From Chitinispirillaceae bacterium (GTDB taxonomy: Bacteria > Fibrobacterota > Chitinivibrionia > Chitinivibrionales > Chitinispirillaceae): 64,000 bases of DNA. Every line of letters starts with the position of its first letter. The first letter of the stretch is position 1. Of this stretch, positions 2,953 through 25,166 are shown piece after piece. The DNA lies in NCBI GenBank assembly GCA_016929595.1, contig JAFGIN010000151.1, positions 1-64,000 on the forward strand, read 5' to 3'. The notes below the pieces were generated by a model. The model worked only from the letters and a program-made list of their open reading frames with translations, did no database searches and was not told the origin of the DNA. Made by a program: the position numbers and the translations under genes.

Positions 2953-3864
2953 ATGAAAACAAAAAACAAAACAACACTATTTTTAATTCTCACATTTGTA
3001 ATCAGTTACTCCTTAGCAGGAATTTACAAATTATCCGGAGGGAACTATTCTGACAGAATCGGTTTTACAATAATTGGTGCAGCTTATATGTTTATACCGA
3101 TGATTTCTGCAATCATTGTTAAAAAGTTTGTCTACAATGAAAAGATAGGCGAATTATTAATTTCATTTAAAATTAACAGATGGTTTTTTATAGCCTGGGG
3201 ACTGATGCCTGTACTAGCTTTCAGTACATTTGGAATCAGCCTTTTGCTTCCGGATGTAATTTACAGTCCAGATATGTCCGGAATGTTTGATCGATTTGAA
3301 TCTATGATGACACCAGAACAATTTGAACAAATGAAGAATTCAGTTAAAACACTTCCTTTTGACCCAATCTGGATTACGTTACTACAGGGATTATTTGCAG
3401 GGGTTACTATCAATGCTATTGCTGGATTTGGCGAAGAGCTTGGTTGGAGAGGATTTCTGTTAATAGAATTTAAAGAAATGAGTTTTTTCAAAGCGAGTAT
3501 TATCATTGGTTTTATTTGGGGTATTTGGCATGCGCCACTGATATTAATGGGACATAATTACCCACAGCATCCACAGACAGGAGTAATAATGATGATTCTC
3601 TGGTGTATTTTATTAACCCCTTTATTTATTTATATTACACTCAAATCGAAATCGGTTATTGCAGCCGCAATTTTACATGGAACATTAAATGCGACAGCCG
3701 GATTAGCTATAATGAAAATTGAAGGGGGTAATGACTTAACTACTGGTGTGACCGGTTTGGCTGGATTTTTAACATTATTTATTTTCCTGACAGGTATATT
3801 TATTTTTGATTATTTTATAACTAAAGATAAAATATTTATTAACAAAATCAGTAACTATCTGTAA
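2953..3864 (+). CDS. CPBP-family intramembrane glutamic protease
   Basis: A 303-residue polytopic membrane protein with an AAAGG ribosome site upstream. It carries the three motifs of the CPBP (Abi/CAAX-like) family: EELGWRG with E161, E162 and R166; an FIWGIWHAP segment with H193; and LHGTLN with H242 and N246. These residues form the active site inside the membrane. Relatives include Rce1-type CAAX proteases and bacterial bacteriocin-immunity proteins. Bacterial members have diverse roles, including processing of peptides and sigma regulators, so the substrate cannot be named. It is the only clearly intact larger gene of the left accessory region. It has no operon partner, so it may be self-standing and controlled by the upstream structured element. 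Confidence 0.85.
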   Translation: MKTKNKTTLFLILTFVISYSLAGIYKLSGGNYSDRIGFTIIGAAYMFIPMISAIIVKKFVYNEKIGELLISFKINRWFFIAWGLMPVLAFSTFGISLLLPDVIYSPDMSGMFDRFESMMTPEQFEQMKNSVKTLPFDPIWITLLQGLFAGVTINAIAGFGEELGWRGFLLIEFKEMSFFKASIIIGFIWGIWHAPLILMGHNYPQHPQTGVIMMILWCILLTPLFIYITLKSKSVIAAAILHGTLNATAGLAIMKIEGGNDLTTGVTGLAGFLTLFIFLTGIFIFDYFITKDKIFINKISNYL

Positions 3865-5691: not shown

Positions 5692-7413
5692 TCAGGCACC
5701 TGATTTCTTTACAATCTTCGCCCATTCATCTTTCAGTGACACCGTCCTGTTGAACACGGTTTTCTCATCTGTAGATTCCTTATCCACACAGAAATAACCG
5801 ATTCTTTCGAACTGGAATTTATCCTCAGGGGTAACATGTGCCAGAGATGGTTCCCCTTTGCAATTAAGTAAAACCTTCAAAGAATCGGTATTAAGATCTT
5901 TGAGGTAATCACCATCAGTTCCGGCCCCTGGCGCTTCACTATTGAACAGTTTATCATACTGTCGCACTTCGAGATCAAGAGCATGCTGTGCAGAAACCCA
6001 GTGAATCGTTGCTTTTGGTGACCGTCCATCAGGAGCGGCTCCTCCCTTTGTCTGCGGGTCGTAGGTACAACGTAATTCAACAACCTCACCAGCGTCATTT
6101 TTGACCACATCTGTACAAGTTATAAAATAGCCATACCGCAGCCGTACTTCACGTCCCGGGCTGAGTCTGAAAAATTTCTTTGGCGGCACTTCCATGAAGT
6201 CATTTTTTTCAATATAAAGTACTCCGGAGAATGGTACCTGACGAGTCCCCATCGAAGCATCTTCGGGATTATTGATAGCATCAATCATTTCAACCATCCC
6301 CTCGGGGTAGTTCTTGATAACCACTTTCAGAGGATTAATAACCGCCATCACCCGTTTTGCCTTTTTGTTGAGATCCTCGCGGAGACAATGTTCAAGAAGT
6401 GCATAATCTACCGTGCTGTCACGTTTTGCAACGCCGATACGTTCACAGAAGTTCCGTATCGACTCTGGTGTAAACCCTCTTCTCCGCAAACCAGAAAGTG
6501 TCGGCATTCTCGGATCATCCCATCCTGCGACATAATTTTTATCAACAAGTTCCTTGAGTTTCCGTTTACTCATCACAGTAAAGGTGAGGTTAAGACGTGC
6601 AAATTCGATCTGCTGCGGATGGTGGACAGAAAGCTGATCCAGGAACCAGTCATACAGCGGACGATGATCCTCAAACTCAAGTGAACAGAGCGAATGGGTA
6701 ACCCCTTCGATTGAATCCTCAAGGCCATGTGCCCAGTCGTACATCGGATAGATTTTCCAGCGCCTTCCCTGGCGATGATGCTCTGCTTTAAGAATACGGT
6801 ACATGACAGGATCACGAAGGTTGATATTTGGACTTGCCATATCGATTCTGGCCCGCAGCACCCGTGAACCATCCTCGAAATCACCATTTGCCATCTTCTC
6901 GAATAATGCAAGGTTTTCTTCAACGCTGCGGTTGCGACATGGACTATCCTTTCCTGGCTCAGTCAGAGTTCCGCGGTATTTACGGATCTCATCAGCGGTC
7001 AGATCATCGACGTATGCTTTCCCCTGTTTTATCAGCTCGATCGCCCACATATGTATCTTTTCGAAATAGTCAGATGCATAGTAACAATGTTTACCCCAGT
7101 CAAAGCCCAGCCAGCGTACATCGCGTTGAATCGAATCGATATATTCCTGATCCTCTTTTGCCGGATTTGTGTCATCATACCGTAAATGACACTCGCCGCC
7201 AAACTCCTGAGCACTACCAAAGTCGATACAAATAGCTTTCGCATGTCCTATGTGAAGATACCCGTTTGGTTCCGGTGGAAAACGGGTGACCACTTTCCCA
7301 CCCCATCTTCCGCTTTTCATATCCTCTTTGATTATTTCCCGGATAAAATTTGCAACAGGTACAGTAGCTTCACCCTTGCTATTTTCATCAGTCCGATTTT
7401 CGTCTTTTCCCAT
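5692..7413 (-). CDS. glnS: Glutaminyl-tRNA synthetase
   Basis: 573 residues, about the usual length for GlnS. Class I synthetase signatures are present: [16 protein letters not shown] with HIGH at 54-57, and TVMSKRKL for the KMSKS loop. The YDDTNPAKE and [14 protein letters not shown] segments mark the glutamine enzyme rather than GluRS. It charges tRNA-Gln directly. Bacteria with GlnS need a GluRS that does not mischarge tRNA-Gln, and gltX lies just upstream in the same operon. The start has a TGGAG ribosome site. The gene follows the Dabb protein by 26 bp. Confidence 0.95.
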
Positions 7414-7439
7414 ATATAAACTCCAGTATATTTATTTTT

Positions 7440-7739
7440 TCAAATTTCGTAGTCGACAACATGCCGTTCTGCAACAAGTTTGCCTATTTGCGCAGCGACA
7501 TCTTTGTGAATCGGATGATCACCATACTCTTTGAGATCATTTACAGAGTTAAATGTTGAATAGAGTACCACATCATATGCGGCTGCAGTGCGATTACTAT
7601 CCAGGCCTGTTTCAAATTTGACAATCTGAGGAACTTTTCCCTGAAGAGTATCCAGCAGCTCCTTTATTTTTGCTGCGTTTGCATTCTGCTCAGCCAGATC
7701 ATTTCCAATACATTTCCACATTACAATATGAACAATCAT
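7440..7739 (-). CDS. Dabb (stress-responsive A/B barrel) domain protein
   Basis: 99 residues covering a single Dabb ferredoxin-like domain. It opens MIVHIVMWK, with conserved GLDSNRTAAAYDVVLYSTF in the middle and HPIHKDVA near the end. Dabb proteins form dimeric alpha/beta barrels. Members range from stress proteins to polyketide cyclases, so the reaction is not predictable. The start overlaps the gltX stop by four bases (ATGA) and glnS follows 26 bp on, so the three are co-transcribed. A Dabb gene between two tRNA synthetases has no obvious functional reason. Confidence 0.8.
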   Translation of the reverse strand: MIVHIVMWKCIGNDLAEQNANAAKIKELLDTLQGKVPQIVKFETGLDSNRTAAAYDVVLYSTFNSVNDLKEYGDHPIHKDVAAQIGKLVAERHVVDYEI

Positions 7740-9202
7740 TTTGATTCCTTACTTCTGATGTGTGTGATTGCATTTTCAATTCTTCGTATCACAGAGTCTT
7801 TTCCAATCAGCTCCATTATTTCGTACAGACCGGGTCCTGCACTTACCCCGCTTATCGAAAGACGTGCCGGATGGATAAGTTTTCCAGTAGACACACCCCT
7901 GCTTTCGGCGAGAGTCTTAAAAAGTGTTTCAATTTCTGATGCTGTGAATGAGCCGGTACCGGCAAGTGCATCATTGATAACTCCAAGCACAAAAGCTGCA
8001 TCAGAGGTAAACTGTTTCGCAGCAGCTTTTTCATCATAGGAGAGGGGATCTGCGAAAAAATAGAACGAGTTATCGACTATATCTGTCAACCGTCTCGAAC
8101 GAACTTTCATCAAAGTTATGACACTGAGTAAATAATCATCAGAGAAGCCTGATACATCTATTTTTCTTTCAGCCCACAGATCTTTACAATCATCAAGAAG
8201 AGCATCGCTGTTTTTCCCGGCAAGATACACCCCATTCATCCACTCCAGCTTCTGTTCATCGAACACCGCTGATTTCGGGGACACTTTTTCCAGTGAGAAT
8301 GCATCAATAAGTTCTTTCAGAGACATCTTTTCCCGCTCATCACCCGGAGACCACCCAAGCAATGCAAGGAAATTGAAAAGTGCTTCAGGTAAAAAGCCTC
8401 CGCGTTTGAAATCCATCACTGATGCGGCACCTTTTCTTTTTGATAATTTTCCCCCATCAGGAGAGAGAATAATCGGAAGATGAGCGAATTCCGGTGGTGT
8501 CCATCCGAATGCTTCGTAAAGAAGTACATGCCTGGGAGTTGATGCGATCCACTCATCACCCCGTAAAACATGAGTAATGTTCATCAGATGATCGTCAACA
8601 ACATTTGCCATATGATACGTCGGATATCCATCACTTTTAATAAGCACAAGGTCATCGAGAACATCACTGCTGTACTCAATTGCTCCTCTTATCTTATCAG
8701 TAAAAACGACTTTTCGTCCGGATGGAATCTTGAGACGCACCACAAAGGGTGTACCGGATGCAAGATGAGCCGCGATCTCATCATCACTTAGATTTCTACA
8801 CTTTTTGTCATATCCTGATGGTTGTTTTGCCTTTTCCTGTTCAGCTCTCAGTTGTGTAATTCTCTCCGGAGTGCAAAAACAACGATACGCATGCCCCGAT
8901 CCGAGAAGTTTTTCAGAGTATTCCTTGTAAATATGAAGTCTCTGGGATTGTATATAGGGTCCGCAGCCACCATCAGCCTGGGGTCCTTCATCCCACTGCA
9001 AGCCAAGCCATTTAAGACTTTCGTATATCTCCTGAAGAGCACCTTCAACAAACCGGGTCTGGTCAGTATCTTCGATTCTCAGAATAAAAGTACCATTATG
9101 ACGTCTGGCGAAAAGATAATTAAAAAGTGCGCTCCGGGCCCCTCCGACATGAAGATACCCTGTTGGAGATGGTGCAAATCGAACTCGAACAGATTCAGCC
9201 AT
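7736..9202 (-). CDS. gltX: Glutamyl-tRNA synthetase
   Basis: 488 residues, normal GltX length. The HIGH region reads APSPTGYLHVGGARSALF near residue 9, and the KMSKS loop is GGKLSKRKGA near residue 240. A CFCTPERI segment occurs where many GluRS bind zinc. It charges tRNA-Glu for protein and, where the C5 path is used, for haem precursor synthesis. First gene of a gltX-Dabb-glnS operon. An AAGGA ribosome site precedes the ATG. Its promoter should lie in the 594-bp divergent region shared with the kinase gene. Confidence 0.95.
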   Translation of the reverse strand: MAESVRVRFAPSPTGYLHVGGARSALFNYLFARRHNGTFILRIEDTDQTRFVEGALQEIYESLKWLGLQWDEGPQADGGCGPYIQSQRLHIYKEYSEKLLGSGHAYRCFCTPERITQLRAEQEKAKQPSGYDKKCRNLSDDEIAAHLASGTPFVVRLKIPSGRKVVFTDKIRGAIEYSSDVLDDLVLIKSDGYPTYHMANVVDDHLMNITHVLRGDEWIASTPRHVLLYEAFGWTPPEFAHLPIILSPDGGKLSKRKGAASVMDFKRGGFLPEALFNFLALLGWSPGDEREKMSLKELIDAFSLEKVSPKSAVFDEQKLEWMNGVYLAGKNSDALLDDCKDLWAERKIDVSGFSDDYLLSVITLMKVRSRRLTDIVDNSFYFFADPLSYDEKAAAKQFTSDAAFVLGVINDALAGTGSFTASEIETLFKTLAESRGVSTGKLIHPARLSISGVSAGPGLYEIMELIGKDSVIRRIENAITHIRSKESK

Positions 9203-14669: not shown

Positions 14670-15152
14670 TCAAGCACTTCTTTTCCTTATACCATAAAGA
14701 TAATCTTTCATTTGAACTCTTTTTGTCAAAGGGACTGTAACATTCGCCAATATATCCATCTCTTTCCTTCCGACCAGGACCCCTGGCGGCACATATTTCG
14801 AGACGGTAGTACCTGCCTGTATAACCGATCCCTTTCCAATATGAGTATCAGGCAGAATGACACAGTGAGGTCCGATAAAAACATCGTTTTCAATAATAAT
14901 TTTGCCCGGTTTTCCACTTCCCCTCTTCCCCCAGTATAGATGAGCGATAATGCTGCATCCTATTCCTATTGTGCAATAATCACCTATCGAAATTGCTTCC
15001 GGATGGATTTCATCAATGTATACATATTGACTGATCCATACATCTTTTCCTATAGTTACACCTCGTATGCTGTGCAGCCAAGGCCGTAGAGTTCCACCAC
15101 CCGGCGCGAAATATGCAAATCTTCTCAGTAAACGTTGAACTATTATATTCAT
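14670..15152 (-). CDS. Hexapeptide-repeat acyltransferase (WcaB/CysE-like)
   Basis: 160 residues forming a left-handed beta helix with hexapeptide turns (VTIGKDVWISQYVYID, CTIGIGCSIIAH, VFIGPHCVILP, THIGKGSVIQAGTTV). The catalytic-type His lies in the GPHCVILPDTHIG region. Proteins of this type O- or N-acetylate sugars from acetyl-CoA in capsule and exopolysaccharide loci. It is the last gene of the polysaccharide locus and follows the GINT1-like gene by 17 bp. The substrate is not predictable. Confidence 0.75.
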   Translation of the reverse strand: MNIIVQRLLRRFAYFAPGGGTLRPWLHSIRGVTIGKDVWISQYVYIDEIHPEAISIGDYCTIGIGCSIIAHLYWGKRGSGKPGKIIIENDVFIGPHCVILPDTHIGKGSVIQAGTTVSKYVPPGVLVGRKEMDILANVTVPLTKRVQMKDYLYGIRKRSA

Positions 15153-15169
15153 GATACAATCGATGTTCC

Positions 15170-16126
15170 TTAAAAATCTAATGTCAGTTTTACTCTCTTG
15201 TTGTATCCATCAACAGCAGCTATATATGATGAATCCTCATCCTTCCAGACATCGATTTGGTGCATACCATGCAATGCCCACCGTTCTTTTCCACGTTTTA
15301 GTACAGGGTTTTTCCTGTACGGAGTCTCAGCATAGTTTTTTTCGTCTATTTTTTCAATAATAAAGGCATTCACTTCCTTGCCATAAGTTTTTTTACAATT
15401 CTGTGAAAATCGGATAAGATTGTTATTATATATCAGCATTCTACCTCCCGGCCGTGCTTTGTCAGCGCGCTCTTTTATGACAGGACTTGAAGGATGCTCA
15501 GTCCAGGGCCCGTGAAGATTATTAGAATAAAACAGTTTCAGAGTAGAATGCCTGTGCGGTTCAGAACCTGCATAAAGCCACCACAAATTATTATATCTTA
15601 TAAGTGAATGATCTCCGAATGTACCTTGAAGCAACGTATCTATCAACTCCCATTTTTCCGGAAAATCTTTTGCATAATACAGAGACAGAAATCCCGCTTC
15701 CGCACTCTCCGGAATTAAAAACATCGAATCGTTCCACTCAAAAACATATGGGTAAGAGATGTGATAATTACAATCAATAATGATCTTTTTGTATTCCCAT
15801 TCTTTAAGATCTTTACTATAAGCATACCCGATATCACCTTTCATGTCCTTTTTGTTTAGAACTTCAAAAAAGAGATACCATCGAGAATCTTTTTTCCATA
15901 TAAATGGATCCGCAACAAAAGCAGCCTCAACATCAGTAACCATGGATGCATCTACAACAGGATTTCTGATATCGCCATCCGGTCCTATATGCAATGGATC
16001 TTTTCCCTTGTATATTCCTATAGACCAGATACTTTCACTACTTACTGAAACTTTGTCTTTTAACATATAGAACAAAGTATAAGAAGCGCCTGAGACGATA
16101 ATTACAATAAAGAGTAACAACTTCAT
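15170..16126 (-). CDS. GINT1-N-terminal-like five-bladed propeller protein
   Basis: 318 residues. An N-terminal hydrophobic helix (about 2-22) acts as signal or anchor. The rest resembles the five-bladed propeller fold shared by GH43-type hydrolases and the N-terminal domain of plant glucosamine inositolphosphorylceramide transferase. Visible signatures are VADPFIWKKDSRWYLFFEV, GDIGYAYSKDLKEW, then ISYPYVFEW and FGDHSLIRYNNLWWLYAG. Bacterial relatives sit in polysaccharide clusters next to formyl- or acyltransferases. Function unproven; a sugar-binding or trimming role at the cell envelope is an inference. It starts 19 bp after the UbiD-like gene stop. Confidence 0.65.
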   Translation of the reverse strand: MKLLLFIVIIVSGASYTLFYMLKDKVSVSSESIWSIGIYKGKDPLHIGPDGDIRNPVVDASMVTDVEAAFVADPFIWKKDSRWYLFFEVLNKKDMKGDIGYAYSKDLKEWEYKKIIIDCNYHISYPYVFEWNDSMFLIPESAEAGFLSLYYAKDFPEKWELIDTLLQGTFGDHSLIRYNNLWWLYAGSEPHRHSTLKLFYSNNLHGPWTEHPSSPVIKERADKARPGGRMLIYNNNLIRFSQNCKKTYGKEVNAFIIEKIDEKNYAETPYRKNPVLKRGKERWALHGMHQIDVWKDEDSSYIAAVDGYNKRVKLTLDF

Positions 16127-16145: not shown

Positions 16146-17189
16146 TCAGCGTACTTTGAGGTTTCTTCCGGATAATTGGAATAACGTAAAGAGCTGATTA
16201 CGTAAAAGTAATGTTTGTATCCGGTTTTTAAGCTTTGACCCGTGAAAATTCATCATTCCGATTGAAGCAAGAACAGAGAGTAATTTGTGATCTTCAGCCC
16301 CAGGTTTACCAACTGCCATACCCCTGAAAATACAATTTTCCCTACAATGCATGGCTGTTACTTCGTAGAGCAGAGCATTCCTGTTACTATTTGCAACACC
16401 AGTATAATCAGCAAAAGGTCCATCGGTTACCCGTACACCCGCTTTTAATCTGCCTTCGAGAATTATCTCCGAATCAATGGGATACTCGAGATCTATCGTC
16501 TCACACAATCCCAGAGACACCGGTTTTCGTAAAATAGAGCCGGCAATCTCAAGTTCATCTATTCCACAGAGTGTGGCAGTTGATGCAGCCAGGACAACAT
16601 CCTCCTGAGTACCAATTGCAGTCACCATCTCAAGATCCAGTCCTTTTTTTTCGGCGACCAAAAACTGTTGTGCTAAATGACTATTGGCAGATACACTTAT
16701 CGTAGTGTGATTATCATCGATAATCATCATTCTATAAATTCCGACATTCCTTATCTTACTCACTATATCTTTAGTGATATTAGCATGCCATGTTCCAATA
16801 TACCTTCCACAATCGCGTTTGTCCCACCATGGTACCGGCAATTCAAATAGATTGACGGAAGTAGTGCTGCTAAAACCATTCCGGTTATACGTTTTATCAA
16901 TAAGGCAGGGTGTCTCTTTCTTTCTCAACCTTTCACGGATACAATCACCTATCTGTTTGAGTGATTGCTCTTTATCCATTTCCAAAACAGTACGGATTGT
17001 TTTTACAGATGAAAATCCTCCGGTAAAAAGAGTACTGTCTTTGTAGTCTTTAATTTTAGTAAAAAGTATCGGTGTATCGATATTTTCTCTGCAAATTGTT
17101 CCAATTTCATACTTCCAGTCGACCTCATGATCAATCTCGACCAGGAGACCTTCATTGCGAAGTTTACTTATACATTCTCTTAGATTCAT
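16146..17189 (-). CDS. UbiD-like decarboxylase, C-terminally short and divergent
   Basis: 347 residues against the usual ~450-500 for UbiD enzymes, which use prenylated FMN to decarboxylate aromatic or unsaturated acids. The N-terminal ~320 residues align clearly: MNLRECISKLRNEGLLVEID, then NVGIYRMMIIDDN, GKPGAEDHKLLSVLASIG and FHGSKLKNRIQ. The C-terminal domain is missing and the next gene starts 19 bp after the stop. Key regions differ. The usual E-G-P-F-G-E/D-x-T-G reads DGPFADYTG (256-264), and the usual His-rich stretch after NVGIYR is ISVSANSHLAQQF. It may have a changed substrate or be a non-catalytic partner. Its neighbours are an FAD oxidoreductase, a HemB homologue and an adenylating enzyme. 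Confidence 0.75.
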   Translation of the reverse strand: MNLRECISKLRNEGLLVEIDHEVDWKYEIGTICRENIDTPILFTKIKDYKDSTLFTGGFSSVKTIRTVLEMDKEQSLKQIGDCIRERLRKKETPCLIDKTYNRNGFSSTTSVNLFELPVPWWDKRDCGRYIGTWHANITKDIVSKIRNVGIYRMMIIDDNHTTISVSANSHLAQQFLVAEKKGLDLEMVTAIGTQEDVVLAASTATLCGIDELEIAGSILRKPVSLGLCETIDLEYPIDSEIILEGRLKAGVRVTDGPFADYTGVANSNRNALLYEVTAMHCRENCIFRGMAVGKPGAEDHKLLSVLASIGMMNFHGSKLKNRIQTLLLRNQLFTLFQLSGRNLKVR

Positions 17190-17215
17190 TCAGGATGTTT
17201 TTAGTAATTCGAATC

Positions 17216-18523
17216 TCAAACATTGAGAAGATCTCTGACCTTATCACCTGTTTTTTGACCATCAATAAAGGAGTCTTCCATTGAGAAGTATTCCCAGCCA
17301 CCAAACCTGCCAGCGGTAAAAACGTCATTTTTCCGGAGATACTCCTTGATTTTTTTTACATCAGATAAAGTATCTTTTTCGTAAATTACATAGGCATATG
17401 GAATATCTATTGTTTGAATCTCTTTTATATTACTGTCATTATCTATCAATTTTAAGGAAACCATGTCATCAACACATTTGCCTATACATGCGTCTTTATT
17501 GATTTTTGAGTTTTTTTTGTAAGAAGTTTCAATATACACCGACCCGCATCCTCCGGGTGTAACATTCTTTGAAAAATTGTGAGGAAAGCCTATCCTGTAA
17601 AAACTGAACTCTTTTTCCGGGAAATAAATCCAGTGTTTATTGCAGTTCTTTTTACTCAAACCGAAATTTACATCAAAAATTGAGATCCAGTTCAACCTTT
17701 TACTGCAATTCCCGATCTCCGTAGGCTTACTTGTAATTGAATTCACAAGTTCCGGAAGCGGTTGTGTTGAAATGAGGTATCTGAATTTCAGGTCACGATT
17801 TTTACTAGTTTTAGCGATCCTTTTTTTCAGGTCAATCTCGATTACTTTTTCATCAGTATTAACCTTCATTTTACTTGTCAATCCATTGATAATAGTTTCT
17901 ATACCTCCATAAGCAGGATAAAAAAAATTGGCATTATAACCCATCTGGTACTTTTTCTGATCAAACAATGCCCCCTGTAACATTCCTTCAAGATTAGCTT
18001 TCGGAACAAATCTGCCACCGGTTTCAGGAAGAAGTAATCGTGGATGCAATTTTAGCATTTTTTTTGTGTAGGGAATAAAAAAATGTTTACCAATTCCTTT
18101 ACCAAAATTCTGAATAATCCAATCCTCATAGGTTTCAGGAAGAGGTTTATCGTAAGAATATATTGAATCACAATAATGAAGAAGACACTCGATAATGACA
18201 TTTTCCGGTAACCCATATAAATTCATCTGGAAGGGATACCTGGTAAAAACAGTATTAGAAAAAATCCAGGCATTTCTCTCTCTGTGCTCAATATTTCCAT
18301 CAAGTATTCGTAAAATTCTTTTTTTGAATTCAGCGTTTTTAAAATGGAGCAGATGTCCTGTATAATCGAATAAAAATCCACCCTTTGATTCGGTGCGACA
18401 AAGCCCTCCGGCTCTATTCTCTTTTTCGATAATGGTGTATGGTATCTTCAACTCTTCCATTCTCAGAGCCGCACCGATTCCGGTTATGCCTGCACCAATT
18501 ATAAGAACATCATCCATATTCAT
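17216..18523 (-). CDS. FAD-dependent oxidoreductase, UGM/protoporphyrinogen-oxidase-like
   Basis: 435 residues. The N-terminal Rossmann motif is LIIGAGITGIGAALRMEE followed by IIEKENRAGGLCRT. A GGIETIINGL segment and the C-terminal FAD contact TAGRFGGWEYFSMEDSFIDG complete the fold. The superfamily includes UDP-galactopyranose mutase, amine oxidases and protoporphyrinogen oxidase. Members of this subgroup in polysaccharide loci lack an assigned reaction. It follows the glycosyltransferase gene by 15 bp and precedes the UbiD-like gene by 26 bp. The co-location with HemB and UbiD homologues suggests it may act on a non-sugar ring compound rather than a nucleotide sugar, but this is inference. 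Confidence 0.7.
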   Translation of the reverse strand: MNMDDVLIIGAGITGIGAALRMEELKIPYTIIEKENRAGGLCRTESKGGFLFDYTGHLLHFKNAEFKKRILRILDGNIEHRERNAWIFSNTVFTRYPFQMNLYGLPENVIIECLLHYCDSIYSYDKPLPETYEDWIIQNFGKGIGKHFFIPYTKKMLKLHPRLLLPETGGRFVPKANLEGMLQGALFDQKKYQMGYNANFFYPAYGGIETIINGLTSKMKVNTDEKVIEIDLKKRIAKTSKNRDLKFRYLISTQPLPELVNSITSKPTEIGNCSKRLNWISIFDVNFGLSKKNCNKHWIYFPEKEFSFYRIGFPHNFSKNVTPGGCGSVYIETSYKKNSKINKDACIGKCVDDMVSLKLIDNDSNIKEIQTIDIPYAYVIYEKDTLSDVKKIKEYLRKNDVFTAGRFGGWEYFSMEDSFIDGQKTGDKVRDLLNV

Positions 18524-18538
18524 CTATTTGTCACTTCG

Positions 18539-19669
18539 CTAAATTATGTTATAATTCTTAAGTAATTTTGTATATAGCTTTTCAAGTCTTTTTGTAAATT
18601 GACCCGGTTCAAATTTTGAAAAAGCATTTTTTTTGCCCATTTCTCCCATTGACTTCAGCCTGTCTGAACTTTTCAACAGGTCAATAATTTCCCGGGCAAG
18701 TACATGGTGATTGTCCGGAGGTATCAATCTTCCAGTCACTTTATCTTCGACAAGTTCTTTATTCCCTCCTACATTGGTTGCAATAACAGGCAAGCCAGAA
18801 GCCATTGCTTCCAGAATTACAATAGGACACCCCTCAGTTCTTGATGGTAAGACAAACAGGTCGAAAGCAGACAGCATTTCAAAGCTGTTATCTGTGTACC
18901 CGTTGAAATCGATGTATCGGGACACATTCAGTTCCCCAGCCAGTTTTTTCAATTTTGTTTCTTCCGGACCAGTTCCAACTATTATGCATTTTAAATTCCT
19001 GTTTTTTTCTGAAACAATCTGTATCGCTTTTATCAAATCGTCTACTTTCTTTTCTTCAGATAATCTTCCGACAAAACCTACGGTAAAAACACCTGTGATT
19101 TTGGGTACCCTGTTTTTCTCTTTCGCTTCAGTGTATTTCTCCATGCTGAATGGTGGATAGATTATTTCTGTTCTATCATGCATCCATACCGGGCTCCATT
19201 CCTTTTTGAGATACTCTGAAGTCACAACTAACTGATCGCATTTTTTAAAAGCATATTTCAGGGCGACCTGCAGTAATCGATCCCTCATCCTTCTCAAACC
19301 AGGTGGCGCAATGTTCTTCAATGTCATTTCAGTAGCAATGACAATTGGAACTTTTGCCGATCTGGCAGTTAACGTTGCTGTCAAATTTGCCCGCAATACA
19401 TGTGTCTGAACAATGTGCGGCTGCAGTTTTTTTAAGCGGCTGTATAGTCCTGTTATTTTGTTGATTTCCGATCCATTTCCGACGACCTCTATCCTGCCTC
19501 CCTTTTTTATAAATCTCTCTCCAAAATCATTGCCGTTATATTCATTTACCATTGCAATTAATTCATATCGATCTTTATCCAGACTATCGGCAAGAATTGA
19601 CAGTATTTCAATTAATCCATTATACACATTAAATGATTTATATACATGTACAACTTTTATTCTGTTCAT
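18539..19669 (-). CDS. GT4-family glycosyltransferase
   Basis: 376 residues with the GT-B fold. The donor-binding C-terminal half shows FTVGFVGRLSEEKKVDDLI, IVGTGPE and the E-x7-E motif in RTEGCPIVILEAMASGLPVI. It probably transfers a sugar to the growing lipid-linked repeat unit at the cytoplasmic face. Four bases separate its start from the HemB-like gene stop, so the two are translated from one transcript. Sugar donor and linkage cannot be inferred. Confidence 0.85.
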   Translation of the reverse strand: MNRIKVVHVYKSFNVYNGLIEILSILADSLDKDRYELIAMVNEYNGNDFGERFIKKGGRIEVVGNGSEINKITGLYSRLKKLQPHIVQTHVLRANLTATLTARSAKVPIVIATEMTLKNIAPPGLRRMRDRLLQVALKYAFKKCDQLVVTSEYLKKEWSPVWMHDRTEIIYPPFSMEKYTEAKEKNRVPKITGVFTVGFVGRLSEEKKVDDLIKAIQIVSEKNRNLKCIIVGTGPEETKLKKLAGELNVSRYIDFNGYTDNSFEMLSAFDLFVLPSRTEGCPIVILEAMASGLPVIATNVGGNKELVEDKVTGRLIPPDNHHVLAREIIDLLKSSDRLKSMGEMGKKNAFSKFEPGQFTKRLEKLYTKLLKNYNII

Positions 19670-19673
19670 GGTA

Positions 19674-20642
19674 TCAATTTTTCAAGTTCCTGGCAATTTC
19701 TTTTGCATGATACGAGATAATCATATCTGCTCCAGCCCTTTTGAATGCGGTCATTAATTCAATTTTTAAATCCCATCGCAAATCTCTGGATATATTTTCA
19801 ACCATCTCGAATTCCCCACTCACATTATACACAGCCAATGGAATATTGAATTCGGATTTTGCACGATATACAATATCAAGATACATCATTGCAGGTTTAA
19901 CCATTATTATATCAGCTCCTTCTTCAATATCAAGAGCTATTTCCCGCAATGCTTCATTGCCATTAGCAAAGTCCATCTGATGGGTCTTTTTGTCTCCAAA
20001 CTGTACTGAACTTCCAGTACCATATTTGAAAAAATTTGCATACAATGTTGAAGCATATTTTGCAGAATACGCCATTATTGGTATATCAGAGAATCCGCTT
20101 TCATCAAGTGATGAACGTATCGCTTTGATCTGTCCATCAAGCATAGCAGATGGAGCAACCATATCAGAACCTGCTTCCACGTGTGATAATGCAGTTTTTG
20201 AGATTAACTCAACTGATTCATCATTTACAAGGTAGTCATTTTTAATAATGCCACAGTGTCCGTGCTGAGTATATTCACAAAGGCAAACATCTGTGATAAC
20301 CATAACATCATTAAAAGAGCCTTTAATTTTTCTTACAGCCTGCTGGACAATTCCATTTTCACTGTACGCTTCAGTTCCAAGAGAATCTTTCTTTTCGGGT
20401 ACACCGAACAATAATATTTTATTAATTCCAGCCAGACGTAATTCCTCTATTTCCTTCTCTACTTTATCAAGTGATAAGTGATAATTATCATTCATATTCG
20501 GTATTTCATTTCGTATTCCGTTTCCATGAACGACAAAAACAGGGTAGATAAAATTTTCAATGTTAAAGCTATTTTCACGGACCATATTTCTGACAATCTG
20601 ATTTTTTCTCAACCTTCTCATCCTAACTACCGGGTAAGCCAT
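19674..20642 (-). CDS. HemB-family protein (porphobilinogen synthase), divergent paralogue
   Basis: 322 residues, normal HemB length. Both Schiff-base lysines are present (K195 in AYSAKYAS, K249 in VKPAMMYLD), as are the three zinc cysteines C120, C122 and C130 in DVCLCEYTQHGHC. The substrate-carboxylate loop differs from typical HemB. Where bacterial enzymes usually have YGPFRDA, it has YANFFKYG, and GDRKTYQMDP is GDKKTHQMDF. Two conserved Arg are thus Lys and a conserved Tyr is His. HemB condenses two 5-aminolevulinates to porphobilinogen. The fit with the aldolase core is strong, but the changed loop and its place inside a polysaccharide locus suggest a specialised enzyme. A housekeeping role cannot be excluded if no other copy exists. 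Confidence 0.8.
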   Translation of the reverse strand: MAYPVVRMRRLRKNQIVRNMVRENSFNIENFIYPVFVVHGNGIRNEIPNMNDNYHLSLDKVEKEIEELRLAGINKILLFGVPEKKDSLGTEAYSENGIVQQAVRKIKGSFNDVMVITDVCLCEYTQHGHCGIIKNDYLVNDESVELISKTALSHVEAGSDMVAPSAMLDGQIKAIRSSLDESGFSDIPIMAYSAKYASTLYANFFKYGTGSSVQFGDKKTHQMDFANGNEALREIALDIEEGADIIMVKPAMMYLDIVYRAKSEFNIPLAVYNVSGEFEMVENISRDLRWDLKIELMTAFKRAGADMIISYHAKEIARNLKN

Positions 20643-20662
20643 AGCATTCTCTCCATTTCCTC

Positions 20663-22261
20663 TTATTTAATTACAAAAAACGGTATAATTTTTCCACTTC
20701 TGGTTAAAACGGGTTCTTTCCTTTCAACTTTTATTATATTAACCTGTTCCCACATCACTGTTCCTGACTGAGTCCAGGACTCCGGGCTTGCTTTTGAATT
20801 CTTCAGATATTTAATGAATTCAGATTTTAAATGTTGTTCATCCACATCGGGGATTTTCGGACTTACCAGCAACTTTAACCTGTTAAGTCCTCCCTGCTCT
20901 TCATATTCAATGAGCTGATAATCTGTGCTTGAACCACCGAATTGTTCCGGAAGTTTCTTTTCCAGAATTTCGATAAAATCTGTATCGACAAAAGTAACAC
21001 CTTCTCCAGTTAACTTTTCATAGCTCCGTATTCCTGAAAGGTGTGTTGAAAATCCTATTTTTCCAAAGTCACAGCATGTTTCTTTCTCCTCGATCAGACC
21101 ATAATCACCCATTCCCACGTTCAGCAATATTTTGGGTGATTCAAACATCAGATTAGTAAAAAGAAAGGAATCAACGGACAAATCTCTTTGAGAATCGATA
21201 TAGTTGTGTTTTATTACTGCAGTTGAATCTTTGTATAAATGGCAGTGGTCACTTTGATCTCCACACTCAGGGCTATTACACCCTGCAGCAACAACACCGG
21301 CTTCAGAAATACCATATACAGGAATTGCCTTTGCCCCGGCGTTTTCAATTTCAGCTTTCTTTTTTTCTGTCAGTGGTTCACCTGTAACCAGAAAATATGT
21401 TCCTGCTATGTTAATATTTCTTTCCTGAGCTGCCATGCAGATACGTACCGCTGACGCTGCAAAAGTATAGATAACACATTTTGAAAATTCAGAACACATT
21501 TCAGAAGCCCATGATGCTATAATATGTGCGCTGTTGAGATCAACATATTCAGGATCTGCAATAGGTACGCCATAAAGCCTTGCAATTGAAAAAATGAGCT
21601 TCGCACCAAAAACTTTTTCCCAGTTGACTTTAACCTGTCGAGCTTTAACTTGTGAAAACCACTTTTTAGGTGGATTTCCTATTTTGGAAAATCGTAACGA
21701 TGAGTTAATTCCGGGAGCACCTGGAAACAGCGGAAACCAGTTTGCAATAGGTGCATTCATCAGGCCAAATATCGATAACAAATATGCATCATACAAAGCC
21801 CTTTTTGATAAATACTCGAAATCGATTCTTACTCGGGTTCCGGCACTTCTACTTGCACCGCTTCTGACTTCATAGGCTTCTTTGACAAAAGGATTATCGA
21901 AATCAGATTCACGACATTTAAATTTTAATCCGTTCCGGTTAACTTCCTTCTTTCCTTTGAATTCATCTACAGTAAAGTATATTCCCTCCAGTAGTAAACG
22001 TTTCAGCGTTTCTTCAATTCCCGAATTTTGTACCCACTTTTTTATATCCTGTGCCGTTATTCCAGCGGACTTCAACATTGATTTATAGGGACTATGATCA
22101 TTCCCGCATATCCCTTTTTCAACGATAGAAATAAAATTTGAATCTCTTGCTTTCATTCTTTCTGTCAGCTGTACACGTGCAGTCTCAAGTGCCTCAACCG
22201 GAGACATTCTGTTTTTTAAATAGCTATTGAGACCTGAAATAAATTTAATGTACTTTTTCAT
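20663..22261 (-). CDS. PaaK/LuxE-like adenylate-forming enzyme
   Basis: 532 residues related to phenylacetate-CoA ligase-type adenylating enzymes. It has a phosphate loop RSGASRSAGT (133-142), VTGEPLTEKKKAEIENAGAK, the A5-type motif YGISEAG (316-322) and a C-terminal TRSGKIIPF with a lysine at the position of the catalytic A10 lysine. A Cys/His cluster (C328, C333, C340, H341) resembles the zinc site of PaaK proteins. Such enzymes activate a carboxylic acid as acyl-AMP for transfer to CoA, a carrier protein or an amine. It is the first gene of the HemB/FAD/UbiD group and is 20 bp from hemB. It could activate the product made by those enzymes, but the substrate is unknown. Confidence 0.7.
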   Translation of the reverse strand: MKKYIKFISGLNSYLKNRMSPVEALETARVQLTERMKARDSNFISIVEKGICGNDHSPYKSMLKSAGITAQDIKKWVQNSGIEETLKRLLLEGIYFTVDEFKGKKEVNRNGLKFKCRESDFDNPFVKEAYEVRSGASRSAGTRVRIDFEYLSKRALYDAYLLSIFGLMNAPIANWFPLFPGAPGINSSLRFSKIGNPPKKWFSQVKARQVKVNWEKVFGAKLIFSIARLYGVPIADPEYVDLNSAHIIASWASEMCSEFSKCVIYTFAASAVRICMAAQERNINIAGTYFLVTGEPLTEKKKAEIENAGAKAIPVYGISEAGVVAAGCNSPECGDQSDHCHLYKDSTAVIKHNYIDSQRDLSVDSFLFTNLMFESPKILLNVGMGDYGLIEEKETCCDFGKIGFSTHLSGIRSYEKLTGEGVTFVDTDFIEILEKKLPEQFGGSSTDYQLIEYEEQGGLNRLKLLVSPKIPDVDEQHLKSEFIKYLKNSKASPESWTQSGTVMWEQVNIIKVERKEPVLTRSGKIIPFFVIK

Positions 22262-22588
22262 CGGTCAATCCGTTTTTTTCTGAATTTTAGATTGTTCTTT
22301 TTTTATAGTTCAATCCGAATTTATTATTTCGTCTTCTCCCATCAACCGAGATCAGATCAGCTTCTATATCCTTGACCATTTTTGCTGTTAATACAGGGTT
22401 TTTTACAGGTTCATCAAAATCAAATTATATGGTTTATCACTAAACAGTATGCCAATTTAATACTCACCTTTAACTACTACAAAGGGTATTCCTCTTTTAT
22501 TTCCAATAATGGCTCTTCTGAGAAATTTGGGGTAGTTAAATGGCTACTCTCTGATTTTATTATGTAAATCAGCTGATTTTTTTTCCTT
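22262..22588. other. Upstream region of the adenylating-enzyme gene, no gene found
   Basis: About 330 bp of AT-rich DNA. One open frame of about 60 codons on the plus strand has no ribosome site and no resemblance. The promoter for the HemB group may be here if it is not read from the upstream polysaccharide genes. Confidence 0.4.
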
Positions 22589-22829
22589 ATCCCGTAGGGA
22601 TCAAATATTTATATTTATAGAAATAGTAATAATAGAAACGAAATTTTCGTCTCGGAGAGACGATATATTTATTGTATAACAAGCAAAATGTGTTTTGTTT
22701 GTTATTATGAATACCGGTAATATATTTGTACAATTCATCTTTCCATTCAGGCATTATAAGAGATATCCTGTTTTCAACTGCAAAAATGAATTGGAGATAG
22801 ATATCTCTGTGAATCTGTTTGCCATACAA
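22587..22829 (-). pseudogene. Truncated IS200/RAYT-like transposase (Y1_Tnp)
   Basis: An 80-residue frame begins QIHRDIYLQFIFAVENRISL and continues IMPEWKDELYKYITGI. This is the N-terminal start of the Y1 HUH transposase domain of IS200/REP-associated transposases. Homology ends near the ITGI position. The rest is low-complexity Lys/Tyr sequence, and the catalytic HUH and Tyr residues are missing. Two small palindromes of the REP type follow at 22589-22661. It is a dead element separating the two halves of the polysaccharide locus. Confidence 0.6.
22589..22661. repeat. Pair of REP-like short palindromes
   Basis: ATCCC-GTA-GGGAT (22589-22601) and GTCTC-GGA-GAGAC (22649-22661) are perfect 5-bp-stem palindromes. 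Each is followed by a similar AT-rich phrase (CAAATATTTATA and GATATATTTATT). Paired small palindromes beside a RAYT-type transposase remnant fit the REP arrangement, in which the transposase recognises the hairpins. Confidence 0.5.
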
Positions 22830-23119
22830 TTAACCTTCTATGCATATTTTGGACAAAACCAATAATTTAAAACATGCATAACCTTTCCTCTGGAATGGTT
22901 GAAGCTCTCTGAACAACAACGCGAATGTCACTATCAGGTAATCGTATGGTCTTTGTCAATATGATACCCTAAAATATGTTTTATATCATACGCTTGGGAA
23001 CCTTCCTTTACCGGAATCTACCCACAATTTTTTCTGACGAGGCCCAATAATAATTCCGGAAAGGATAGCTACTATAATAAGAATATGAATTTAGGAAATC
23101 TGTTTTTTTTCCATATCGG
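22830..23119. other. Intergenic region, no gene confirmed
   Basis: 290 bp. Short minus-strand frames exist (one reads a hydrophobic stretch near 23030-23080) but are interrupted by stops and have no recognised relatives. It may be decayed sequence linked to the neighbouring transposase remnant. Confidence 0.35.
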
Positions 23120-24280
23120 TTAATGAGTTCTATTAATTAGCAGATAGTTATTCAATGCCTTATACATTGTCGCCTGTCCCCAGTGAAGCATTGGTGTTTT
23201 GTCTTTAACCAGCGGCAATACCCTGTAATAGAAATAGCCCTCTTTATCAAACATATTATTAATTGTCCATTCAATTGTCTTATTTGCTACATTGAGTAAT
23301 TTTTCATCATTTTCTGACAACAGGCTTAACGTATCAATAGCTTGAGAAGCACATTGTATTTCAATTGGATATGTTTTGTTGTTGTAATACTTTGGTGTTC
23401 CGTCGTTTTTGAAAAAATTTTTCACATAATATTCAGTGCCATTCTTCAGGTTTTTATTGAATTCAATATTTTTTGAATACTTTATATAGAGATGTAAACT
23501 ATCAAGATTATATCCTGTATGAAAATTATCAACCCAAAGTGTACTCGGACCTTCACCATAAAACCATGAGCCATCATCTCTCTGTCGGGAGCAGCTATAG
23601 AGCATCGCATCTCCAGCGACTTTCATCATCTCTGCATCATTACAGATCGATGCTGTACGTGCCAGCATTGCAGCTCCCAGCATATTTGAATTATGAATTG
23701 AACTTTGCGTAAATTTTACATAACTTATACACGTTCCACACTCAGTTTTTTCTCTGGGAAGATTCATTATCCAGGTACATATATCTTTTGCAATATCTAA
23801 ATATTTTTTCTCTTTTTTTGTATCATATACATCGAGTACTGCTTGTCCTATTAAACTTGTCCAAACAATAATAGGCTCATGTTTAGGTAACTTTCCGGCT
23901 CTGCTGGTGAAATCAAAATGATTTCCCCAGCAGGCATTTACATGGCCGGGAGATCTGTTTTTCAGCAACCATTCAAGGCAACGATCTGTTTTGTCCAGGT
24001 ATAATTGTTCTTTTCTTCTTTTATAATTTAACAAATAGCCCCATGCCATATACCCTCGCCCCTTTGTTGATTCAAGAGGTTTAACCCCCAGTATTGGACG
24101 AAGGTTAATCGGTGATTGTCTTACGATCTGCTGTAAAATTCTTTCTGGGTATACTTTATTAAAAGTAAGCGGCCTTAAAAACGATGACAAACCGTCAAAG
24201 GGCTCGTAGCTTTTATACTCTTTTTTTTCAACCCATTTTTCTACAAGATCGACACACTCTTCGATTCTTTCATTCTTCAT
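23120..24280 (-). CDS. Six-hairpin (alpha/alpha)-barrel protein of polysaccharide loci
   Basis: 386 residues when started at ATG 24280, which has an AGGG site; an in-frame ATG at 24322 would overlap the previous gene by 53 bp. No signal peptide. Aromatic and Trp-rich repeats typical of six-hairpin glycosidase-like barrels recur: CLEWLLKNRSPGHVNACWGN, SRQRDDGSWFYGEGP, FHTGYNLDSLHLY and MLHWGQATMYKAL. The fold is shared by unsaturated glucuronyl hydrolases and N-acylglucosamine epimerases. I cannot assign catalytic residues. It overlaps the GT2 gene stop by 11 bp, so it belongs to the same transcript. A cytoplasmic sugar-modifying or repeat-unit-trimming role is inferred. Confidence 0.6.
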   Translation of the reverse strand: MKNERIEECVDLVEKWVEKKEYKSYEPFDGLSSFLRPLTFNKVYPERILQQIVRQSPINLRPILGVKPLESTKGRGYMAWGYLLNYKRRKEQLYLDKTDRCLEWLLKNRSPGHVNACWGNHFDFTSRAGKLPKHEPIIVWTSLIGQAVLDVYDTKKEKKYLDIAKDICTWIMNLPREKTECGTCISYVKFTQSSIHNSNMLGAAMLARTASICNDAEMMKVAGDAMLYSCSRQRDDGSWFYGEGPSTLWVDNFHTGYNLDSLHLYIKYSKNIEFNKNLKNGTEYYVKNFFKNDGTPKYYNNKTYPIEIQCASQAIDTLSLLSENDEKLLNVANKTIEWTINNMFDKEGYFYYRVLPLVKDKTPMLHWGQATMYKALNNYLLINRTH

Positions 24281-25166
24281 ACTTTTTTCCCTGTATTCTA
24301 AATATTTTGGACAATCGATCAATCTGCTCCTTCTGGTGAAAATTTTGAAGCTCTTTTGATATCGGTTTTTTTACACCTGAAATTGCAGCATATATGTAAC
24401 CCGATAACACCATCATACCGGAGATTATATATGGCCTGGCCAACATTTGATTAATAGTTCTAAATACCTGCCATAAGAACAGATTTCCCAGATAGTAATC
24501 TTTTATCCCGTGGTTGAATCTGGCTTTTAATAATCCGGCACTACCAGTTCCCATAGGTCTAAGGTGTGTAAATTCTTTTTCGGTATAGGTTACGGTTTTC
24601 CATCCTTTCATCCTGGCTGTTGTCACTGCAATCCAGTCAATTCCGCCATGCCTGACTGGCGTATATCCACCAATATCATTGTAACATTGCATTCTGAATA
24701 TCTGACATGCTCCGGAAACATGATTTAAATCGACATATTTCCCATTGTATACTCTTTTTCCATTTTCAACAAAAGGTGTTCCTGCAACACCCAGTCGTGG
24801 GATCTCCATAAATTTTATCAGCAGGTACTCCATGAAATCCGGACCAAAAACAATATCAGCATCAATATTTCCAACAACATCAATTTTTTCATCTTTTATT
24901 TTTTTAATTCCCTCATTGAAGGAATTAACTTTGGCATCGAATCTTCTTCCTGATCTGACTGGTAAATCTATCAGTGTTATCCACCTGTAATCTGACAAAT
25001 ACTTCCTGACTATTTCTGATGTTGCATCCGTAGAGCCATCATTAACAATAACCCACTTCAGAGGTAAAACAGTCTGGTTTATTACCGAGCGGATGGTTTC
25101 TTCGATAAATTTTTCTTCATTGCGAGCAGGAGTAATCAAACCATAATCAAGAAACTTTTTGCTCAT
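24270..25166 (-). CDS. GT2-family glycosyltransferase
   Basis: 298 residues. The N-terminal GT-A domain has ITPARNEEKFIEETI, WVIVNDGSTDATSEI and a DxD motif in NIDADIVFG. A C-terminal hydrophobic stretch near residue 245-265 may anchor it to the inner membrane. It transfers a nucleotide-activated sugar during repeat-unit assembly. It shares one base with the stop of the preceding GT2 gene (TAATG), showing tight coupling. Confidence 0.85.
   Translation of the reverse strand: MSKKFLDYGLITPARNEEKFIEETIRSVINQTVLPLKWVIVNDGSTDATSEIVRKYLSDYRWITLIDLPVRSGRRFDAKVNSFNEGIKKIKDEKIDVVGNIDADIVFGPDFMEYLLIKFMEIPRLGVAGTPFVENGKRVYNGKYVDLNHVSGACQIFRMQCYNDIGGYTPVRHGGIDWIAVTTARMKGWKTVTYTEKEFTHLRPMGTGSAGLLKARFNHGIKDYYLGNLFLWQVFRTINQMLARPYIISGMMVLSGYIYAAISGVKKPISKELQNFHQKEQIDRLSKIFRIQGKKYEE

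Follow-up and report, generated by a model that had tools for sequence, protein, structure and literature searches.

A minus-strand gene run in the window, by which we mean the whole 64,000-nucleotide stretch of a Chitinispirillaceae bacterium (Fibrobacterota; contig JAFGIN010000151.1) analysed here, combines genes for a PaaK-like adenylating enzyme, a paralogue of the porphobilinogen (PBG) synthase HemB and a short UbiD. Judged from sequence, the best overall explanation is that these genes quite probably form a dedicated module in which aminolevulinate (ALA) would be converted to a PBG-type pyrrole and then, by predicted PaaK and UbiD steps, to a product other than a tetrapyrrole. The evidence for the module is a separate HemB clade with intact catalytic lysines and zinc ligands, a fixed gene core, a dedicated HemA (with or without HemL) and UbiX in relatives, and retention of the genes in genomes without the PBG deaminase HemC. 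That the pyrrole is made for a non-tetrapyrrole purpose appears very likely. The roles given to UbiD (a reaction at a ring carbon) and to PaaK (activation of the acid) are a tentative suggestion, and attachment of the product to a glycan is equally tentative. We somewhat favor the broader view that PBG is a branch point, which bacteria of at least three phyla would divert via a dedicated HemB, a domain-reduced prenyl-FMN (prFMN) enzyme and an adenylating enzyme to a new pyrrole, either a metabolite or a substituent of a glycan, and that in some species this is the pathway's only use. The gene run reads as follows.

20663-22261, minus strand: PaaK-like (ANL superfamily) adenylating enzyme, 532 aa; core gene.
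19674-20642, minus strand: HemB paralogue (porphobilinogen synthase) of a cluster-specific clade, 322 aa; core gene.
18539-19669, minus strand: GT4 glycosyltransferase, 376 aa, nearest to TIGR03088/BshA-like proteins with a score below the cut-off; accessory gene.
17216-18523, minus strand: FAD-dependent oxidoreductase of the PRK07208/UGM-like group, 435 aa; accessory gene in Chitinispirillales.
16146-17189, minus strand: short UbiD (prFMN-binding domain only), 347 aa; core gene.
15170-16126, minus strand: GINT1_N / GH32-43-like protein (PF24793, 207 bits), the family of the N-terminal part of plant glucosamine inositolphosphorylceramide transferase; accessory gene in Chitinispirillales.
14670-15152, minus strand: hexapeptide (left-handed beta-helix) acyltransferase, from family searches; accessory gene in Chitinispirillales.

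Open reading frames (ORFs) and family searches agree with an initial annotation of this DNA, which had described a tight PaaK/HemB/GT4/FAD/UbiD group with gaps of 4-26 bp (20, 4, 15 and 26 bp, in that order, in the ORF list). The run extends past UbiD into the GINT1_N gene (gap 19 bp) and the acyltransferase gene (gap 17 bp). The cluster HemB matches PF00490 with 428 bits and exceeds the NCBIfam PRK09283 cut-off, the GT4 assignment is backed by Pfam and NCBIfam searches, and the FAD oxidoreductase has NAD_binding_8/Amino_oxidase domains, with PRK07208 as the nearest family, below its cut-off.

We scanned 168 genomes of the Fibrobacterota phylum (G numbers below) and, more widely, genome contigs (L numbers denote contigs or loci from that scan). 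The PaaK-like protein is present in 10 of the 168 genomes, the nine other copies being 59-63% identical to the one in the window. Gene order in these relatives is PaaK-HemB-GT4-FAD-UbiD-GINT1-X-acyltransferase, where X is UbiX. HemA sits upstream of PaaK in the Chitinispirillales relatives, with HemL between the two in two genomes. GT4 directly follows HemB in seven of the nine phylum relatives; G023 has the set spread over three contigs with all members retained, and there the GT4 is found on a different contig together with the remaining genes. GINT1 keeps its place after UbiD and in relatives always stands between UbiD and UbiX, and the acyltransferase (56-62% identity) comes after UbiX. 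PaaK occurs in 10 phylum genomes and short UbiD in 11, with both in 10 (hypergeometric p about 3e-15; P values here and below ignore kinship between genomes). The eleventh short-UbiD genome, G032 (79% complete), carries FAD-UbiD-GINT1-UbiX on a 6.5-kb contig.

The wider scan yielded 28 loci from Fibrobacterota, Acidobacteriota, Verrucomicrobia and one Aminicenantes contig, with PaaK homologues 54-63% identical across the four phyla; a PaaK search of plasmids gave no match. PaaK-HemB-UbiD stand in fixed order in Fibrobacterota, Acidobacteriota and Verrucomicrobiota, and the Aminicenantes contig has PaaK-HemB. By tblastn over the loci, the order PaaK-HemB-(HemA)-UbiD is invariant and on one strand. 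Short UbiD was found in 27 of 30 PaaK-positive genomes (10/10 in Fibrobacterota, 17/20 outside the phylum), and two of the three genomes without it have a PaaK contig of just 3-5 kb. Outside the phylum, UbiD follows HemB (or HemA) in the same orientation, and a profile search and tblastn located it in L094, L096, L100 and L103. The full set, HemA-HemL-PaaK-HemB-GT4-FAD-UbiD-GINT1-UbiX-acyltransferase, is present in L088, and GT4 also in L089, L090, L092 and L095. Because the gene order recurs in so many genomes, the linkage is not a matter of chance, and the co-occurrence that the initial annotation had proposed to look for extends to several phyla. Its set of four families needs revision. PaaK, HemB and UbiD are the conserved core; in many acidobacterial loci this triad stands bare beside unrelated genes, so the FAD enzyme and the GT4 are accessories. 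GINT1 and the acyltransferase had been omitted. GT4, FAD, GINT1, UbiX and the acyltransferase are mainly a Chitinispirillales extension.

In a tree of 46 HemB proteins the 26 cluster copies form one clade (support 100/100) apart from the 20 others. The genome of the window has a second hemB of the housekeeping type (C191:255-1193), within a run that, partly as read from sequence, includes a radical-SAM protein, HemL, HemA, HemC and siroheme-type genes. The possibility that the cluster gene is a stray housekeeping copy is ruled out by this second hemB and by the separate clade. Together with the recurring gene order, these results mean that the pyrrole idea withstands the refuting conditions set in the initial annotation. 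Both Schiff-base lysines are invariant in the 26 cluster proteins, and the metal site DVCxCEYTxHGHC, with its zinc cysteines, and the P-side Ser and Tyr are kept. The basic A-side lid residues of housekeeping HemB are not matched: Arg206 is replaced by Lys in 24 of 26 copies, Arg218 by Lys and Tyr221 by His in all 26, and all 26 have a one-residue lid insertion, an extra Phe204. These swaps and the insertion occur in none or few of the 20 other HemB; the Chlorobaculum HemB has Lys at 218. In PBG synthase, the KM-determining substrate is bound through its carboxyl by basic lid residues (PMC7729013), and the acetic-acid side of PBG derives from the second ALA (PMC7242693). Taken with these roles, the clade-specific changes mean that the cluster HemB has a modified lid or A-side, and it may use another substrate.

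If so, the altered HemB might join ALA to a different amino-ketone or keto-acid, giving a ring-carboxylated pyrrole that UbiD decarboxylates and whose side chain PaaK activates, without any PBG. The lid changes and the substrate-binding role of the lid would fit such a reaction, and ring carboxylates are the usual targets of UbiD. Against this, Lys keeps the positive charge, Lys218 is shared with the Chlorobaculum enzyme, and a dedicated HemA and HemL for ALA suit PBG equally well. We regard this scheme as unlikely; it is a variant within the best explanation, and our estimates for the two overlap.

HemC was not found in G016 (99% complete), G017 (99%), G024 (100%), G023 (88%) and G038 (86%), and the sole HemB of each of these genomes belongs to the cluster clade. 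The HemC-negative module genomes are metagenome-assembled genomes (MAGs), and two genera have members at 99-100% completeness. Phylum totals are 132 genomes with HemB and 129 with HemC; the other genomes with HemB and no HemC are G049 (60% complete), G110 (77%) and G166 (HemB at a contig edge). PaaK is enriched in HemB-positive genomes that lack HemC (5/8 versus 5/124; Fisher p 4e-5). No cluster includes HemC, which, where present, lies on a different contig. No alternative route from PBG to uroporphyrinogen III has been described (PMC7242693), and therefore a PBG-type product must serve another use in the genomes without HemC. Retention of the module in such genomes is the strongest argument for the predicted non-tetrapyrrole role.

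Alternatively, the cluster HemB might be a second PBG synthase isozyme for ordinary tetrapyrroles (for use, say, when metal or oxygen conditions differ) that came to lie in a polysaccharide operon by chance. The conserved catalytic Lys, Zn Cys and P-side residues are compatible with this idea, as is the presence of HemC in G000 (the genome of the window), G004, G005, G006 and G018. It is nevertheless very unlikely, given the five module genomes without HemC, three of them 99-100% complete, the enrichment for PaaK just described, the PaaK-HemB-UbiD order fixed across phyla, and the co-location of HemA, HemL and UbiX with the module while HemC is elsewhere. Compared with the tetrapyrrole C5 pathway, the cluster shares the HemA-HemL-HemB sequence from glutamyl-tRNA to PBG but differs in having no HemC (five genomes having none at all), in a separate HemB clade with lid changes, and in the added PaaK and UbiD. 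HemC matches with lower scores were also seen in frames of 650-673 aa (G006:C113:27219-27818, G025:C3:110266-110859 and G026:C123:14960-15559), which are possible HemC fusions.

HemA in the cluster is a glutamyl-tRNA reductase (PF05201), and there is no ALA synthase. The cluster copy is the sole HemA in G016, G017, G023 and G024, and HemL is present in all ten module-bearing Fibrobacterota genomes. The cluster HemAs were not resolved as one clade in a HemA tree, so there may have been several separate recruitments of HemA. A search for a HemA remnant in the 22262-23119 gap, by tblastn with a relative's HemA, gave no match anywhere in the window. An apparent HemA remnant lies between HemB and UbiD at 3334-3537 of the Terriglobia contig L104, which suggests that the dedicated HemA was lost there.

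Recruitment of ALA formation into specialized metabolism is also a feature of C5N-unit clusters, which use an ALA synthase and an acyl-CoA ligase. The PaaK-like enzyme could by analogy make ALA-CoA or ALA-AMP, to be cyclized or amidated afterwards, while HemB merely binds or dimerizes ALA derivatives; dedicated ALA supply together with an acid-activating enzyme does resemble actinomycete C5N clusters (PMC4525017). Here, however, ALA would be formed via glutamyl-tRNA, the core has neither an ALA synthase nor an amide synthetase, and the scheme leaves a catalytically intact PBG synthase and the UbiX/UbiD pair unexplained. We consider it marginally less probable still than the isozyme.

The PaaK-like protein has no match in Pfam or NCBIfam. 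A profile search against the PDB retrieved the phenylacetate-CoA ligase chain ClxA (E 1.7e-4), and an AlphaFold2 (AF2) model matches PaaK1 and BT_0428 in fold (structures 4r1m, 2y27 and 2y4n). In 23 homologues the adenylation motifs RSGA(T/S)RSxGTR, YGISEAG, GMGDY and SGK are invariant or nearly so, and C327, C339, H340 and C396 are invariant. The protein thus resembles PaaK1, BT_0428 and ClxA in adenylation motifs and fold, but it differs from PaaK-family ligases in its low identity (13-16% in structural alignments), its lack of a Pfam match and an extra helical N-terminal region of ~100 residues. It is predicted, from motifs and model, to be an ANL/PaaK-type adenylating enzyme.

The UbiD in the window matches PF01977 (154 bits) and UbiD_N and has no C-terminal domain. 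All its short homologues (~345-355 residues, some open frames starting earlier) likewise lack the C-terminal oligomerization domain and have a conserved helical C-terminal tail of their own. A frameshifted or truncated pseudogene is ruled out, length and tail being conserved across phyla. UbiX makes the prFMN cofactor of UbiD; it lies inside the cluster in seven Fibrobacterota genomes and adjoins UbiD on contigs C8 of G023 and C203 of G032, and in G000 it is unlinked to the cluster, on C53. The AF2 model of the short UbiD (pLDDT 91) has its best fold matches in HmfF and HudA (TMq 0.80-0.84). In an alignment of 13 short UbiD, N148 is kept in 13/13 and H171 in 12/13, and E230 is mostly lost among relatives; these would correspond to the Asn/His/Glu metal ligands at the prFMN phosphate. 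The acidic network is Asp-Arg-Asp (D256-R153-D261) in 13/13, and single Glu-to-Asp network variants of Fdc1 stay active (PMC5818171). In UbiD enzymes the active site is formed between two domains, with an interface role for the C-terminal one (PMC8379154); because that domain is absent here, completion of the site may depend on a partner or on a large substrate. HudA (PA0254), a pyrrole-2-carboxylate decarboxylase that acts reversibly, and HmfF, a furandicarboxylate decarboxylase, act on five-membered heteroaromatic substrates and share the prFMN-binding fold. Short UbiD is only about 21-27% identical to them, and it differs in lacking the oligomerization domain, in having Asp-Arg-Asp instead of Glu-Arg-Glu, and in its own C-terminal helices.

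In the proposed pathway, HemA and HemL would supply ALA, from which HemB would make PBG or a close analogue. The window's organism, which has neither HemA nor UbiX in its cluster, would use the housekeeping HemA (C191) and the unlinked UbiX (C53). The carboxylates of PBG are on sp3 side chains and one ring alpha-carbon is free, so UbiD chemistry of a known type is likeliest at that ring carbon: carboxylation, or, fitting as well, decarboxylation of a ring-carboxylated analogue. HudA carboxylates pyrrole reversibly, with bicarbonate (PMC7976604). The PaaK-like enzyme would adenylate the resulting acid for transfer either to CoA or straight to an acceptor, and this adenylation would pull an unfavorable carboxylation forward. 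In Chitinispirillales, the GT4, the GINT1-like protein, the FAD enzyme and the hexapeptide acyltransferase might then oxidize the pyrrole, glycosylate it or attach it, perhaps to a glycan. We infer all steps after HemB, the product and the order of the steps. Tetrapyrrole synthesis is the only pathway known to us that consumes PBG, and in the open-access literature we found no description of PBG-derived non-tetrapyrrole products or of this gene set; the initial annotation likewise knew of no described pathway with it. The pathway would for this reason be of a new kind, built of enzymes that all come from known families.

Several points weigh against this proposal. Half of the module-bearing Fibrobacterota genomes, including this one, do have HemC, and in these the pyrrole may be shared with tetrapyrrole synthesis. 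Most of the genomes are MAGs, and the absence of HemC from G023 and G038 could reflect incompleteness. The altered lid residues leave it possible that the product of the cluster HemB is something other than PBG. The short UbiD is without the domain that normally shuts the active site, and the KCET Glu (E230 in the window) is not retained among its relatives, so it perhaps differs from conventional decarboxylases; the loss of this Glu also calls for caution in assuming normal cofactor binding.

The destination of the pyrrole is a separate matter. In the window, the operon adjoins sugar genes (PGT, Gfo/Idh, DegT, polysaccharide deacetylase and glycosyltransferases (GTs)); in Chitinispirillales, GT4, GINT1 and the acyltransferase are hardly ever missing. 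Several acidobacterial loci stand among exopolysaccharide genes, with Wzx, Wzy-like, GT, amidotransferase or FemAB genes at their sides; Wzx, Wzy-like, GT or FemAB genes border L090, L095, L097, L105 and L107. On the other hand, the product may be a free small molecule or cofactor, with the glycan genes as accessories or mere neighbors. Such an outcome is compatible with the best explanation, since it concerns only where the pyrrole goes, and we give it close to an even chance: the bare triads of L093, L098 and L100 adjoin cytochrome bd, thiolase, rhamnosidase or Ig-domain genes, and G004-G006 have the operon without the glycan genes that surround it in the window. Glycan linkage is therefore a plausible guess for Chitinispirillales and not a property of the core. 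The initial annotation had proposed a pyrrole- or acid-type decoration of a polysaccharide; the pyrrole part has gained from HemA, HemL and UbiX in relatives and from the HemC-less genomes, and attachment holds up only partly in view of the bare triads. Some loci resemble exopolysaccharide loci of the XrtA/PEP-CTERM type in their FemAB-like, amidotransferase, Wzx and GT genes, but the matches are below curated cut-offs and many clusters lie outside such loci. A FemAB/GNAT-type protein, possibly an acyl or aminoacyl transferase partner, is encoded directly or closely upstream of PaaK in four acidobacterial loci, L105 (8623-9678), L107 (2487-3722), L106 (8371-9552) and L090 (6635-7723).

PBG is regarded as committed to tetrapyrroles, and the module, which also occurs in genomes unable to proceed to heme, would, if real, add a branch to a well-known pathway and hint at pyrrole natural products of an undescribed class. 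A second hemB would then not mean extra heme capacity, and HemA and HemB alone would be no proof of tetrapyrrole synthesis in genome annotation. The short UbiD, a natural example of a UbiD pared down to the cofactor domain, could help in learning how UbiD enzymes act on heteroaromatics.

Three further features of the window lie outside the module. A conserved ~400-aa protein without a Pfam or NCBIfam match is encoded at 23120-24322 (minus strand), with 60-63% identical copies beside GT2a in G017, G018 and G024; it is probably a sugar-locus enzyme without an assigned fold. At 5692-9202 (minus strand), two neighboring ORFs look like genes for class I Glx-tRNA synthetases. The GltX-like one of the two would supply glutamyl-tRNA, the substrate of HemA; its nearness to the cluster is probably coincidence. 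A long minus-strand stretch at 37716-60766, adjoining the polysaccharide locus, resembles flagellar genes.

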